The notes beneath the pieces are model-generated. The model saw only the letters and a program-made list of their open reading frames with translations, did not search any database and had not been told where the DNA came from. From Methylobacterium mesophilicum SR1.6/6 (GTDB taxonomy: Bacteria; Pseudomonadota; Alphaproteobacteria; Rhizobiales; Beijerinckiaceae), in contig NZ_CP043538.1 of NCBI RefSeq assembly GCF_000364445.2, forward strand, positions 4,979,447-5,043,446: a stretch of 64,000 nucleotides of DNA, given 5' to 3'. How positions within the stretch are numbered: position 1 is the first letter of the stretch; every line of letters begins with the position of its first letter. A program made the position numbers and the translations under genes. Below are positions 37,361-55,923 of this stretch, in pieces.

Positions 37361-38743
37361 TCAGGCCGTCCAGCGGCGTTCCGCCCGGGCGCGGCGCGGA
37401 CTTCCCACATCGCGGCCCACATCACTGCGTGGACTCGGCGTCCCCAAGCCGTTCGCGACGGCGATTGCCTCGACCTGCGCGCAGGCCTCCGCAGTAGCGT
37501 CGCGACCCTCCGCGATGCGCGCCTTGGCCTGCGCGCAGGCGCGGGCCACCTCCGGATCGGCCAGCAGCCGGCCGATCACCCGGGCGGCGCGAGCCGGCCG
37601 GAAGATCCGGCGGCTCAAAGTCGCCCCGAGGCGCCGGTCCTTAAGGCGCCGGCCCTCGTCGAAATGGTCGAACGCCACTGGGACGACGAGTTGCGGCACC
37701 CCCGCGGCCAGGGCCTGTGCCACGGTCCCCACGCCCCCGTGATGGACCAGGGCGGCGCTCAGGGGCAGCAGCGCGCTCAGGGGCGCGTAGGGCACGTGGA
37801 TGATCCCGTCGGGCAGCGGCCCCGGGATCTGGCCGCCCTGCGGCGCGAGCAGGACGCCGCGGCGGCCCATCCGCCGGCAGACCTGCACCGCGGTCTGGAA
37901 GAAGCCCGCCCCCTGGCGCATGGCCGAACCGTAGGTGAACACGATCGGCGCATCGTCCGGGGTCCGGCCCGCGGCCAGGAACGACTCCAGTTCCGGCGGC
38001 ATGGCCGGGACATCGCCGAAGCGGTCGACCAGCGGGAAGCCGAGCTGCACCGCCTGGGCCGGCCAGTCGGGCTGCGGGGCGGCGTACCAGTCCGGGAACA
38101 TCAGCAGCATGGCGGTGGGACTGTTCCACCAATGGCGCAGCCGGCGGACCGGGTCGAGGCCGAGGCGTCGGCGTAGCGCGTTGAGCGGCGGCAGCGTGAA
38201 CGGACCCACCGCGACTTTGTCGGTGCCGCGGTTGATGAAGGCGCGCAGGCGAGCGGGCAGGAGGCGCGGCAACGGCAATCCGGGCAGCCGCGGCGGATCG
38301 AACCAGCTCTCGATCAGGAACGGCATCACGTGCAGCGTGGCGGTGGGCAGATCGTAGAGATCCTGGGCGAGCCGTGCGCCCCAGCTCAGAGGCGAGGCCA
38401 CCACGATCAGGTTCGCGGTGCGCGCCCGGGTGGCGCCCAGCCACAGGCAGGTGGGCTCGGCCACCTTGAGGGCGAAGTCGAACATCGGCTTGAAGCCCCG
38501 GCGCGGATGCCACAGGTCCGGCTGCCGGATCACTGCGTCGTAGTCGGCGGTGCTGCCGAGGGGCTGGAAAGCCAGGCCCGCCCGGCGGGCCATGGCCTCG
38601 AACGGGGCCGGGGCGGCGAGGCTGACACCGTGGCCGCGGGCCAGGAGTTCATGGCCGAGCGCGATGAACGGTAGCACGTCGCCGTGTGTCCCGACGGCTA
38701 CGAGCGCGATCTCGATCCGTCCGACCGTCGGTATCGCGGGAAT
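37361..38743 (-). CDS. GT1-family glycosyltransferase (MurG/sterol-glucosyltransferase-like)
   Basis: The C-terminal domain carries the GT1 donor site: VPYAPLSALLPLSAALVHHG, then GGVGTVAQALAAGVPQLVVP and AFDHFDEGRRL. The N-terminal acceptor domain has LPFIALGHELLARGHGVSLA, typical of UDP- or dTDP-sugar transferases acting on lipids, sterols or polyketides. The first ATG/GTG/TTG in frame is GTG at 38677, but that lies inside the conserved first strand (IEIALVAVGTHGDV). The real start must be upstream, where the frame has none. An ATT at 38743 has AAGGAG six bases before it and gives a complete 460-residue protein. Acceptor unknown. Confidence 0.85.
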   Translation of the reverse strand: MPAIPTVGRIEIALVAVGTHGDVLPFIALGHELLARGHGVSLAAPAPFEAMARRAGLAFQPLGSTADYDAVIRQPDLWHPRRGFKPMFDFALKVAEPTCLWLGATRARTANLIVVASPLSWGARLAQDLYDLPTATLHVMPFLIESWFDPPRLPGLPLPRLLPARLRAFINRGTDKVAVGPFTLPPLNALRRRLGLDPVRRLRHWWNSPTAMLLMFPDWYAAPQPDWPAQAVQLGFPLVDRFGDVPAMPPELESFLAAGRTPDDAPIVFTYGSAMRQGAGFFQTAVQVCRRMGRRGVLLAPQGGQIPGPLPDGIIHVPYAPLSALLPLSAALVHHGGVGTVAQALAAGVPQLVVPVAFDHFDEGRRLKDRRLGATLSRRIFRPARAARVIGRLLADPEVARACAQAKARIAEGRDATAEACAQVEAIAVANGLGTPSPRSDVGRDVGSPRRARAERRWTA

Positions 38744-38884
38744 GACCTGCTCCTTCGAACCCCCCGATCCGACGACGCGTTCAATGCGCCGCCAGGGAGA
38801 TGACAGCCCGGCCGGGGCGCATCAAGGTTCTTTTCACCATCTCCGCGAGATGTGACCCCGCGTCGCCAACGCCGCCTAGCATTA

Positions 38885-38899
38885 GAACAAAACATGAAC
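38885..38899 (+). promoter_or_regulatory. LexA (SOS) box upstream of the 34-residue membrane peptide
   Basis: GAAC-AAAACAT-GAAC, which is GTTC-N7-GTTC on the other strand, the exact alphaproteobacterial LexA box. It ends 31 bp before the ATG at 38931 and touches a possible -10 (TAATGA), so LexA binding would block transcription of that gene. Confidence 0.7.
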
Positions 38900-38930
38900 A
38901 TAATGAGCCATGCACAGAGGAGGCACGGCG

Positions 38931-39035
38931 ATGATGAAACGGATGATCCTGACCGGGATGGCCGAGTTCATGGCGTTCGGAATGCTGTTTGCCGCGGTGG
39001 GCGCCTGGGCGGTAGCCTTGGCACCGGTTCGTTAG
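38931..39035 (+). CDS. 34-residue single-helix membrane peptide under a LexA box
   Basis: A small ORF starting MMKRMILTGMAEFMAFGMLF and ending AVALAPVR. It has a basic N-terminus, one hydrophobic helix and a short basic end. AGAGGAGG lies 7 bases before the ATG, a near-perfect ribosome-binding site, and a LexA box lies 31 bp upstream. The size, single helix and SOS control resemble SidA, the 29-residue SOS-induced division inhibitor of Caulobacter. I see no sequence identity that would prove homology. dnaE follows 205 bp downstream in the same direction. Confidence 0.65.
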   Translation: MMKRMILTGMAEFMAFGMLFAAVGAWAVALAPVR

Positions 39036-39240
39036 CCGGTTTTGACGGAAGCCCCTCCGGTTCCGGCCCGATGGGACTTATGCACAGGCGATCGGCCATT
39101 CGGCGCCGATTGTCCACAGGGACAGCCCGAACTGGTGCCCCCGGAGCACGGCCGGTGGATATCGTCCCGGAAGGCCCCGCCGCACGTCGACTTGAGCCGG
39201 CCGAGCGGGGATGCTGCACGACCCCTGAACAAGGTCGGCC

Positions 39241-42759
<3,519 letters not shown>

Positions 42760-44481: not shown

Positions 44482-44946
44482 TCACGGCTTGTTGCCCAGG
44501 ATCTCCAGTTCGGGGAACGGCTGGCTGCGGTGCCCGCTGCAAGCCTCGTCGTCGTCGATCACCGCGAGCCGGTCAGCCTCGTGGCGCAGCGCCACCCTCG
44601 GCCGCTCGGGCTTGCCGAAGGTCCGGCCGCTCATGCGGCTCGACACGCAGTAGATCACCCGGCCTCCGTCCTCGATCGGGCCCGCGAGTCGGCTGCCCTC
44701 GAACCGCACCGGCAGCAGCGACATCGAGCCGAAGGCGACCTGCTTCAGGGTCAGCGCCGCGATCCGCGCCCGCAGGGCGGGGGAGGGGGCATCCTCGGCC
44801 GCGGGCTTCGCCTTCGAGGCCGCCGCTGCCGGGGTCGCGGCCAGCGCCAGCGCGATGAGGCCGCATCGGACCAGCCTCCGATCGCGCCGGCGTCGCGCGG
44901 AAGGCCGTCCGTCACGACCCCTCTCGCGGACCGAAAACCCCGGCAT
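44482..44946 (-). CDS. Exported hypothetical protein
   Basis: A 154-residue protein with a long Arg-rich N-region followed by a signal-peptide-like core ([20 protein letters not shown]) and a mature domain of about 105 residues ([20 protein letters not shown], then [18 protein letters not shown] and [14 protein letters not shown]). The start is uncertain: ATG 44946 gives a long n-region, and the frame continues upstream to 45075. It ends 10 bp before the start of the ChaC-like gene on the same strand. Function unknown. Confidence 0.6.
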
Positions 44947-45104
44947 TGCCCGACATCCCCCAGTGCGTTTCGCCGATCGGGACGGGACGAGGGCCCCGAA
45001 TCGATCCGGCACGCCGCATCGTAGGCGTTTTCGCCGCGGGTCAGGAATTTTTTCAGTCGCGATCGTGGCTGCCAAGATGGCCTCGGAATGCCTATCTCTG
45101 CGTG

Positions 45105-45824
45105 ATGCAGTGGACCGATGAGGGGATCGTTCTGGGCCTGCGCCGGCACGGGGAGACCGGCGTCATCCTGGAGGCGATGACCGAGAGCCACGGGCGCCAT
45201 CTCGGCCTCGTGCACGGCGGTCGCTCGCGCCGGATGCAGCCGGTGCTGCAGCCCGGCAACCGGGTGCGGCTGAGCTGGCGGGCGCGCCTCGACGAGGGCC
45301 TCGGTTCGTACGCCGTGGAGCCCCTGGACTCGCAGGTCTCGCGCCTGATCGCGTCGAGCCTCGCGCTCTACGGGATGGGCCACATGGCGGCGCTGCTGCG
45401 GCTGCTGCCCGAGCGCGACCCGCATTCCGCCCTCTACGAGGCCGCCGGGATCCTGGTGGAGCACCTCGACGACCCGGCCATCGCCCCGCCCCTGATGGTG
45501 CGCTTCGAGCTGGCGATCCTGTCGGAACTCGGCTTCGGCCTCGACCTGACCGCCTGCGCGGCCACCGGCGGCAACGACGCCCTGGCCTACGTCTCGCCGA
45601 AGAGCGGGCGGGCGGTGAGCGCCTCGGCGGGGGAGCCGTTCCGCGATCGCCTGCTGGCGCTTCCCACCTTCCTGCACGCCGGCGGTTCCCCCGGTCCGGA
45701 CGGCGTTGCACAAGGGTTTACCTTGACGGGGTATTTCCTCGACCGTCACGTCTGGCGCCCCCGCGGCCTCGGGCCGCCGGAGGAGCGGGCGCGATTCGTT
45801 GCGCTCGGCCGCGAGGCCGGGTAA
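45105..45824 (+). CDS. recO: DNA repair protein RecO
   Basis: A 239-residue RecO, which loads RecA onto SSB-coated gaps with RecR. It starts [20 protein letters not shown], with the N-terminal OB fold. A helical domain follows ([31 protein letters not shown]), then the [14 protein letters not shown] region. The zinc site of some RecO proteins is not evident. ATG 45105 matches the family; the frame reaches up to 44946 but that part overlaps the divergent promoter. A LexA box begins two bases after its stop. Confidence 0.9.
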
Positions 45825-45825
45825 T

Positions 45826-45840
45826 GTTCGTGTTCTGTTC
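45826..45840 (+). promoter_or_regulatory. LexA (SOS) box between recO and parC
   Basis: GTTC-GTGTTCT-GTTC fits GTTC-N7-GTTC exactly. It lies 2 bp after recO and 232 bp before the parC ATG, the only gene downstream. The intervening space holds a family B palindrome, so a LexA-controlled parC promoter here would have a long structured leader. Confidence 0.55.
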
Positions 45841-46072: not shown

Positions 46073-48319
46073 ATGGGCCAGCCCTTCGAGCCGCCGTCCG
46101 GCGACGGGATCGAGAGCGTCGAGCTGAAATCCGCGCTGGAGGAGCGCTACCTCGCCTACGCGCTCTCCACGATCATGCACCGGGCCCTGCCGGATGCCCG
46201 CGACGGGCTGAAGCCCGTGCACCGGCGCATCCTGTACGGGATGCGGCTGCTCCGGCTCGACCCGACCACCGCGCACAAGAAGTGCGCCAAGATCGTCGGC
46301 GACGTGATGGGCGACTTCCACCCCCACGGCGACCAGGCGATCTACGACGCGCTGGTGCGGCTCTCGCAGGACTTCGCCCAGCGCTACCCGCTGGTCGACG
46401 GCCAGGGCAATTTCGGCAACATCGACGGCGACGGGCCTGCCGCCTACCGCTACACCGAGGCGCGGCTCACCGAGGTCGCGCGCCTGCTCCTCGACGGGAT
46501 CGACGAGGACACGGTCGACTTCCGCCCGTCCTACAACGGCGAGAAGGAGGAGCCGGTGGTGCTGCCGGCGGCCTTCCCGAACCTGCTCGCCAACGGCAGC
46601 CAGGGCATCGCGGTCGGCATGGCGACCTCGATCCCGCCGCACAACGCCGCCGAGCTGTGCGACGCCGCGCTCTACCTGATCAACCACCCCGAGGCGACCT
46701 CGGGGCAGCTCGCCAGGTTCGTCCAGGGGCCGGATTTCCCCACCGGCGGCATCCTGGTCGATTCGGCCGAAGCGATCGCCGAGGCCTACCGGACCGGCCG
46801 CGGCGCGTTCCGGGTCCGCGCCCGCTGGGCCAAGGAGGATCTCGGCCGCGGCACCTGGAACATCGTCGTCACCGAGATCCCCTACGGCATCCCGAAGGGC
46901 CGGCTGATCGAGAAGATGGCCGAGCTGCTTCAGGAGAAGAAGCTGCCGCTCCTCGCCGACGTGCGCGACGAATCGGCCGAGGACGTGCGCGTCGTGCTGG
47001 AGCCGCGCTCGCGCACGGTGGATCCGGTGATCCTGATGGAATCGCTGTTCCGGCTGACCGAGCTGGAGGCGCGGATCCCGCTCAACCTCAACGTCCTGGT
47101 CGGCGGCCTCGTGCCGAAGGTGATCGGGCTCGCCGAGTGCCTGCGCGAGTGGGTCGACCACCGCCGCGTGGTGCTGCAGCGCCGCTCGCGCTACCGCCTC
47201 GGCCAGATCGACCGCCGCCTGGAGATCCTGGGCGGCCTGCTCATCGTCTATCTCGACCTCGACGAGGTGATCCGCATCATCCGCGAGGAGGACGAGCCGA
47301 AGGCCGCCCTCATGGCCCGGTTCGAACTCACCGAGCTCCAGGCCAACGCGATCCTCGACACCCGGCTGCGCTCCCTGCGCAAGCTGGAGGAGATAGAGCT
47401 GAAGCGCGAGTTCGAGGCGCTCACCGCCGAGAAGGCCGAGATCGACGCGCTGCTCGCCTCCGAGCCGGCGCAGTGGAAGGCGATCCAGGCGCAGATCCGC
47501 GCCGTGAAGAAGACCTTCGGGCCCGAGACGAAGCTGGGCCGGCGCCGCACGACGCTGGCGAGCCCGCCGGATGTCGGCGGCATCGACTTCACGGCGGCCC
47601 TGGTCGAGCGCGAGCCGATCACCGTGATCGTCTCCACCAAGGGCTGGATCCGGGCGCTGAAAGGTCACGTCGCGGACCTCTCGGGCGTGGCGTTCAAGGG
47701 CGACGACACCCTGAAGATCGCCTTCCCGACCGAGACCACGCAGAAGATCCTGCTGCTCGCCACCAACGGCAAGGTCTTCACGCTGGAGGCCTCGAAGCTG
47801 CCGGGCGGCCGCGGCTTCGGCGACCCGGTGCGCCTGATGGCCGACCTCGACGACGGCACCGAGATCGTGGCGGCTCTGCCCTACCGGCCGGAGACCAAGC
47901 TGCTGATCGCGGGCTCGGACGGGCGCGGCTTCGTGGCGCCCGCCGACGCGCTGGTGGCCAACACCCGCAAGGGCAAGAGCGTGCTCGGCCTCGACGGCGA
48001 CGCCACCGCGGCCGTGCTGGTGCCGGCCGACGGCGACCACGTCGCGGTGGTGAACACCGAGAAGCTGCTCTTGATCTTCCCGATCTCCGAGGTGGCCGAA
48101 CTCGCCCGCGGCAAGGGCGTGCGCCTGCAGCGCTGCCGCAGCGGCAGGCTCCTCGACGCGCACGTGTTCAAGCTGGCCGACGGCCTGCCCTGGCAGGACG
48201 GCTCGACTGAGGGCCGGCTCGCCAACGTGTCGGTGCTGGAGAAGTGGCTCGGCCACCGCGCCGAGGTCGGGCTGATGATGGCGCGCAGCTTCCCGAAGTT
48301 CGAGCGGTTCGGGCGGTGA
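46073..48319 (+). CDS. parC: DNA topoisomerase IV subunit A
   Basis: A 748-residue type IIA topoisomerase breakage-reunion subunit, needed to unlink sister chromosomes. It has [20 protein letters not shown] (about 33-52), [20 protein letters not shown] (about 83-102) and the catalytic Tyr127 in [10 protein letters not shown]. The C-terminal beta-pinwheel is of the ParC type and lacks the GyrA box. The quinolone-resistance region is within 70-110. The start is ATG 46073, with AGGAG 5-10 bases upstream. A LexA box 232 bp upstream raises the possibility of SOS control. Confidence 0.95.
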
Positions 48320-55119: not shown

Positions 55120-55838
55120 CGGCGGACGAGACTCACGAGGCGGCCCTGGATCTGGACCCGGTCGGGCCCGAGGACGCGGGTCTCGTAGGCCGGGTTGGCG
55201 GCCTCCAGGGCGATCGAGGAGCCGCGGCGGCGCAGGCGCTTGAGCGTCGCCTCCTCGTCGTCGATCAGGGCCACGATGATATCGCCCGTGTTGGCGGTGT
55301 CCTGCTTGCGGATCACCACGAGGTCGCCGTCGAGGATGCCGGCCTCGACCATCGAATCACCGCGCACCTCCAGGGCGTAGTGCTCGCCGCCGGCCAGGAA
55401 GTCCGGCGACAGGGTGATGGCGTGGCTCTGGTTCTGGATCGCCGAGACCGGCGTGCCGGCCGCGATCCGGCCCATGACGGGGATCGACACCGCCCGTCCG
55501 GCCTCGTCGATCATGCGGGCATTGGCGGGCAGCGGTGGCTGCTTGGACTTGCCACCCTCCACCACGCTCGGGGTGAACCGGCGGGGCTCGGCGGGCGCCT
55601 GGGCCGCGGCCGCCTGCGTCAGGCTCTCGGGGATGCGGATCACCTCGATGGCGCGCGCCCGATTCGGCAGGCGCCGGAGGAAGCCGCGCTCCTCGAGGGC
55701 CGTGATCAGCCGGTGGATGCCCGACTTCGACTTCAGGTCGAGGGCGTCCTTCATCTCGTCGAAGGACGGCGGGACGCCGCATTCCTGCATGCGGTTCTGG
55801 ATGAAGCGCAGGAGGTCCAGCTGCTTGCGCGTGAGCAT
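55113..55838 (-). CDS. lexA: LexA repressor
   Basis: A 241-residue SOS repressor. The N-terminal winged helix starts [20 protein letters not shown] and has [20 protein letters not shown] as recognition region. A linker follows (about 80-110). The S24 peptidase domain has the Ala-Gly cleavage site in GRIAAGTP at about 126, catalytic Ser162 in [14 protein letters not shown], and Lys in [11 protein letters not shown] 55838; the frame upstream is intergenic. An exact GTTC-N7-GTTC box lies 70 bp upstream, so it represses itself. Its last bases overlap the comEC 3' end by 7 bp in convergent orientation. Confidence 0.96.
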
Positions 55839-55908
55839 CGACGTGGGCCTCGCGGCTTGAGGGACCGCCTCGTGGCGGCCACAGAAACAAATCACGAACA
55901 CGTTAAAC

Positions 55909-55923
55909 GTTCCGCAAGTGTTC
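55909..55923. promoter_or_regulatory. LexA (SOS) box of lexA
   Basis: GTTC-CGCAAGT-GTTC on the plus strand, 70 bp upstream of the lexA ATG. A direct-repeat box of this form is the known LexA site in alphaproteobacteria. Confidence 0.85.

Follow-up and report, generated by a model that had tools for sequence, protein, structure and literature searches.

A conserved 34-residue peptide gene between a LexA-type box and dnaE in Methylobacterium, a candidate member of the SidA family

The open reading frame at positions 38931–39035 of the window, by which is meant the whole 64-kb stretch (64,000 nucleotides) of Methylobacterium DNA that was analyzed, is a real, unannotated gene, and homologues or positional counterparts of it, in which a LexA-type box precedes a one-helix peptide of 27–47 residues and then dnaE, are present in other genera and families. 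From the comparisons described below, the ORF is likely to encode a peptide of the SidA family that is repressed by LexA, induced by DNA damage, inserted in the membrane, and able to block division.

The peptide gene and its promoter region

The features of the locus, with their coordinates in the window, are as follows.

38876–38881, plus strand: weak candidate −35 element, at a spot where many relatives have a TTTACA/TTGACA-like sequence
38885–38899, plus strand: LexA-type box GAACAAAACATGAAC, an exact GAAC-N7-GAAC and putative LexA site
38899–38904, plus strand: likely −10 element CATAAT, abutting the box, from reading of the sequence and the promoter alignment of 37 genomes
38916–38923, plus strand: ribosome-binding site AGAGGAGG, a purine-rich stretch kept across the 37-genome alignment
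38931–39035 including the stop codon, plus strand: 34-residue SidA-family candidate peptide MMKRMILTGMAEFMAFGMLFAAVGAWAVALAPVR, kept in 37/37 genus genomes
39241–42759, plus strand: dnaE, replicative DNA polymerase III α subunit, with Pfam DNA_pol3_alpha, finger, and PHP domains
55650–55841, minus strand: lexA, N-terminal DNA-binding domain (PF01726, E 8.3e-16), with the start codon read at 55838

The peptide ORF consists of 34 codons (38931–39032) followed by TAG at 39033–39035, and a gap of 205 bp separates it from the dnaE ATG at 39241. These coordinates bear out the arrangement described in the original prediction, namely an exact GAAC-N7-GAAC box, a −10 element touching the box, a ribosome-binding site, a 34-codon ORF, and dnaE at a distance of 205 bp. 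The LexA_DNA_bind (PF01726) match at 55650–55841 is the single one in the whole genome and is located in the same window as the peptide; the lexA gene at this position is presumed to encode the repressor that acts at the peptide box. Another box, at 55909–55923 on the minus strand, is directly upstream of the lexA start, as expected for self-control of lexA. There is also a LexA-type box, GAACAGAACACGAAC, at 45826–45840 on the minus strand, between recO (44946–45824) and parC (46073–48319). Elsewhere in the same genome, a DUF6456 gene (L047:1501–2364) has a box identical to GAACAAAACATGAAC overlapping its start, and boxes are found upstream of dnaB-like and imuA-like ORFs (L042 and L038, respectively, the names being assigned by reading).

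It should be noted that the window contains four exact GAACN7GAAC sequences, as compared with 0.93 expected, and that 2 of 100 shuffles of the window reach the same number, so that a single box is little proof of regulation. A simple consensus scan detected no σ70 promoter in the region 38300–39400. Comparison of the 37 genus genomes places an exact box 44–58 nt before the ORF start in every one of them (37/37), and most have a TTTACA/TTGACA-like −35 element just before the box, the −35 being weak in the window's own clade; the box therefore sits, in the majority of these genomes, in the spacer between the −35 and −10 elements, a position from which a repressor obstructs polymerase. Many of the 37 genomes also have an TTAACCAT-like element, which we take to be a CtrA half-site, about 40–50 nt upstream of the box; the TTAACCAT-like element of the window, at about 38830–38839, is degenerate.

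A search of 61 genomes gave a match to the peptide in all 37 that belong to the same genus (E 1.5e-16 to 0.0123), and the other 24 gave four weak matches with E values of 0.117 or worse. Box and ORF are both retained in 52/52 named loci from Methylobacterium, Methylorubrum, and one Beijerinckiaceae MAG, a set that overlaps in species with the 37 genus genomes. In the alignment of 37 rows, residues M1, E12, W26, A29, L30, and P32 are invariant and the third codon positions are the most variable. Purifying selection is indicated by a median ω of 0.34, with 281/281 pairs below 1, calculated from the 281 of 666 codon-aligned pairs for which pS was between 0.08 and 0.5. The 34-residue form is the conserved one; an alternative in-frame start at 38910, corresponding to 41 residues, is not conserved. 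Conservation of the box, the ribosome-binding site, and the frame in relatives, from which the original prediction drew its first check, is thus what was found: box and frame are kept in 37/37 genus genomes and the purine-rich stretch is kept in their alignment. The conservation of peptide and box in all 37 genomes, together with purifying selection, rules out a chance ORF, and a non-coding RNA of a known family is ruled out by the absence of any Rfam match (0 matches). The window peptide does not belong to any Pfam or NCBIfam family; Of the 37 genus members, 3 gave NF033492, with a best E of 0.36, and this assignment is not believed.

AlphaFold predicts a single helix comprising residues 2–30, with a mean pLDDT of 96.5, which is to be expected for so hydrophobic a peptide. 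With 34 residues, one predicted helix, and a hydrophobic sequence, the product is predicted to be located in the membrane.

Counterparts in other genera and probable relationship to SidA

When a profile of the 37 peptides was compared with 248 genomes of the family, 102 matches at E ≤ 0.5 were obtained, most of which are weak, lie in long frames, and are probably due to chance. Two further genera of the family, g56 and g42, contain 14 short-ORF loci, and at each of these (14/14) there is an exact box or a pair of them, with dnaE downstream of the peptide. Two exact boxes, 21 bp apart, precede the peptide in 11/12 of the g56 loci (L113–L123 and L126). For the class as a whole, dnaE was sought in 387 genomes, 305 of which gave a match and 78 of which were searched again, and 100 dnaE-upstream regions were picked for spread over families. 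An exact forward box is present in 16 of the 100 regions, from 12 families, and absent in the remaining 84. An ORF of 22–60 residues with one helix starts within 130 nt in 14/16 boxed regions, as compared with 632/5000 random positions (12.6%) and 59/588 positions in box-less regions; in the remaining two boxed regions, L188 and L207, a short hydrophobic ORF was recognized by eye. Four of the 100 regions have a box in the opposite orientation alone and lack a one-helix ORF.

A search of 297 genomes of the order with a nine-peptide profile built at the same level (A4), which includes no dnaE sequence, produced 189 matches at E ≤ 1, many of them certainly due to chance. The A4 loci examined numbered 44, comprising 24 of 30 automatic fetches (six of the window's genus being omitted) and 20 matches that were picked because their frames are short (E 1.9e-8 to 0.146) and therefore provide no rate for weak matches in general. 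In all 44, dnaE follows in the same direction within 764 nt, and in 38/44 an exact box is found no more than 140 nt away. Since the profile was built from peptides only, the presence of dnaE beside 20/20 of the picked matches indicates that these are not chance matches.

The locus of Caulobacter sidA was examined in genome G755, whose ParB has full identity, across 244 residues, with that in PDB entries 6t1f/7bm8, which we take to be Caulobacter ParB entries. The order in G755 is box, 64 nt, a 29-residue ORF, and dnaE; the other flank carries an inosine-uridine nucleoside hydrolase gene in divergent orientation. In the passages available from the respective papers, SidA is described as a 29-residue inner-membrane protein that acts on FtsW (PMC4211646), sidA is CCNA_02004 (PMC10769358), and CCNA_02005 encodes an inosine-uridine preferring nucleoside hydrolase (PMC3667746). 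The same kind of passages give dnaE as CC1926 and recN as CC1983 (PMC1839093) and also recN as ccna_02062 (PMC12700426), from which it follows that the CC and CCNA numberings are about 79 apart in this region. These published locus tags, as far as the passages give them, together with the layout in G755, identify the ORF flanked by dnaE and the hydrolase as sidA. A relative of the 29-residue peptide was found at E ≤ 1 in 166/199 genomes of f78, the Caulobacteraceae-like family of G596; of 30 f78 loci that were read, dnaE is where expected in 28 and an exact box is present in 21, and 20 further f78 loci, picked for reading, have both box and dnaE in all cases (20/20). The place next to dnaE is common to the peptide of the window's genus (32/36 testable genomes) and to sidA of G755.

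SidA (CCNA_02004) resembles the Methylobacterium peptide in having a LexA-type box, a length of about 30 residues, one helix with a basic N terminus, and a location upstream of dnaE. The two differ in length, 29 residues in SidA as opposed to 34, and the Methylobacterium peptide, unlike SidA, has a conserved Trp and a conserved Pro on its C-terminal side; there is no significant direct alignment between them. In a direct hhalign comparison of the Methylobacterium profile (A1) with the SidA profile (A2), the probability was 0.6%. Among 943 decoys, which are natural small-helix peptides, 299 outscore the window peptide against the SidA profile and 273 outscore SidA against the Methylobacterium profile. 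With the SidA profile, the peptides of g26, f26, f34, and g50 score above all 943 decoys and that of f24 above all but 4, and in a stricter control with 6000 shuffles drawn from the candidate peptides, SidA shuffles included, 5–59 shuffles outscore these five. With the Methylobacterium profile, the peptides of g56 and g42 score above everything else and that of f26 is below two decoys.

With a profile of members of the order from which the window's genus and SidA were both omitted (A5), SidA of G755 and 15/16 SidA relatives outscore all 943 decoys. On this profile, 2/943 decoys exceed the window peptide, and, among the 21 Methylobacterium rows, nine deep-branching ones have no decoys above them and the other eleven have 60–671. 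A5 gave 69 matches at E ≤ 1 in 119 f78 genomes, and the dnaE-linked peptide was recovered in 12 genomes among those matched or fetched; in 7 f78 genomes the A5 match is at the same place as the 29-residue peptide. Other short-frame A5 matches, near the top or fetched besides, are upstream of dnaE in 5/6 cases (G750, G715, G795, G775, and G780), the exception being G696, and G777 gave a false match. Among genomes of g346, a Caulobacter-like genus, the A5 matches listed, those of G755 included, lie away from the dnaE-linked peptide.

Peptides with a single helix are short and carry little information, which counts against kinship that is based on sequence. Homology between the Methylobacterium peptide and SidA, although not reflected in a direct alignment, appears to be supported by position, promoter, and the transitive profiles. 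The original prediction put forward the peptide as an analogue of SidA; the SidA-like reading gains support from the 37/37 conservation of box and frame, the genomic place shared with sidA, and the transitive profile link, and the last two exceed analogy in that they point to a relationship.

Proposed function and alternative peptide functions

If the peptide acts as a SidA-family member, its gene would be silenced by LexA at the box in the −35/−10 spacer, and DNA damage would activate RecA, lead to cleavage of LexA, and allow the peptide to be made. The peptide would then be inserted as one inner-membrane helix, presumably with its basic end inside, and would hold cytokinesis, most likely at FtsW/FtsI/FtsN by analogy with Caulobacter SidA. 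The block would last until the damage is repaired and LexA is back. Conservation of a Glu and a Trp within the helix suggests that the peptide has a specific protein partner.

DidA of Caulobacter is, in the passages seen, also a small, one-helix division inhibitor that is induced by DNA damage, but by this description it has 71 residues, is activated by DriD, and is independent of the SOS response (PMC4211646). YneA, DivS, ChiZ, SosA, and SulA are likewise SOS-induced division inhibitors but, from the partial descriptions consulted, are unrelated genes of other lineages.

TisB is a LexA-controlled short membrane peptide, an antisense-regulated toxin of enterobacteria; tisB carries a long structured leader and the antisense RNA is IstR. 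A toxin of this type, a LexA-controlled, one-helix peptide that depolarizes the membrane and thereby produces dormant, tolerant cells, would be in the same size class as the window peptide and would share its predicted LexA control and single helix. However, the region 38600–39300 (701 bases) has no match to IstR or to any other Rfam family at E ≤ 1, and the ribosome-binding site follows the −10 hexamer by about 12 nt, which leaves no room for a long leader of the tisB type; in these respects the window locus differs from that of TisB. Invariance of Glu and Trp in the region of the helix and the place shared with sidA also favor a specific protein partner, and a TisB-like function is considered unlikely. 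It is also conceivable that the product is an SOS membrane peptide that shares its descent with SidA but has a different target at present, such as an envelope protein or a phage-related process. The large divergence in sequence from SidA would be consistent with this, but place, promoter layout, size, and helix are the same as those of sidA, and we regard a change of target as quite improbable.

Assignment of the box to the peptide or to dnaE

Although the SidA-family reading assigns the box to the peptide, dnaE was also considered as its target. dnaE adjoins the peptide in 32/36 testable genus genomes (the contig of L016 ends too early), read-through across the 205 bp is possible, and dnaE of C. 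crescentus is named as SOS-regulated in the passage available from PMC3323433. In one clade, however, represented by L019–L022 (4/37 genomes), there is no dnaE within 1500 nt and box and ORF are both retained; in L019, a long convergent ORF occupies the usual place of dnaE downstream of the peptide. Among the named loci, dnaE is adjacent in 48/52, and the other four, L074–L077, have no dnaE within 3000 nt; at least two of these are on the same contigs as loci among L019–L022. The relocated dnaE of G008, the one genome examined in this respect, has no exact box in the preceding 1000 nt. Since dnaE has moved and the box and peptide have stayed together, the box belongs to the peptide, and dnaE as its sole target is rejected. 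This evidence, together with the protein-level selection on the ORF, makes it highly improbable that the box serves dnaE through a transcript that raises the level of the replicative polymerase in the SOS response, with the ORF as a leader or incidental. The suggestion in the original prediction that read-through could link dnaE to the SOS response is likewise weakened by the retention of the box with the peptide and by the lack of a box within 1000 nt of the single relocated dnaE that was inspected.

In G696, a clearly related peptide (L347; E 7.5e-6) lacks an exact box, and dnaE is not found within 700 nt of it; this is perhaps another case of separation of peptide and dnaE. A perfect DnaA box, TTATGCACA, is present at 39078–39086, between the peptide and dnaE. 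In a scan of intervals with a located dnaE start, 12 loci without one being left out, a DnaA box was found before dnaE in 9/32 genus intervals, all from the window's clade, and in 0/29 other intervals; dnaE may have its own DnaA-linked promoter.

The results suggest that the boxes behind the SOS-regulated dnaE of C. crescentus serve the peptide at least in part, and references to a “LexA-regulated dnaE” in Alphaproteobacteria should be treated with caution. No description of a SidA-type family outside Caulobacter was found in the open-access literature (titles, abstracts, and some passages), and the founding SidA paper could say more. The Methylobacterium peptide is put forward as a newly recognized candidate member of the SidA family with a wide candidate family behind it. 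More broadly, we lean toward the view that SidA is an old alphaproteobacterial checkpoint peptide, whose gene originally stood between a LexA box and dnaE and was missed because of its size, that the boxes credited to dnaE mostly serve the peptide, and that division is controlled through this peptide during the SOS response in rhizobia, methylobacteria, and related bacteria.

The division inhibitors of the SOS response are in most accounts specific to their lineages and unrelated to one another. Should the family hold, one bacterial class would share an inherited inhibitor that is linked to the gene for the replicative polymerase, and the list of genes and the conserved residues (Glu12 and Trp26) would be available for studying the way in which one helix brings FtsW-driven wall synthesis to a halt. 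The LexA sites that are annotated to dnaE in Alphaproteobacteria would then need re-examination, and a checkpoint gene would have been missed by the annotation of small ORFs.
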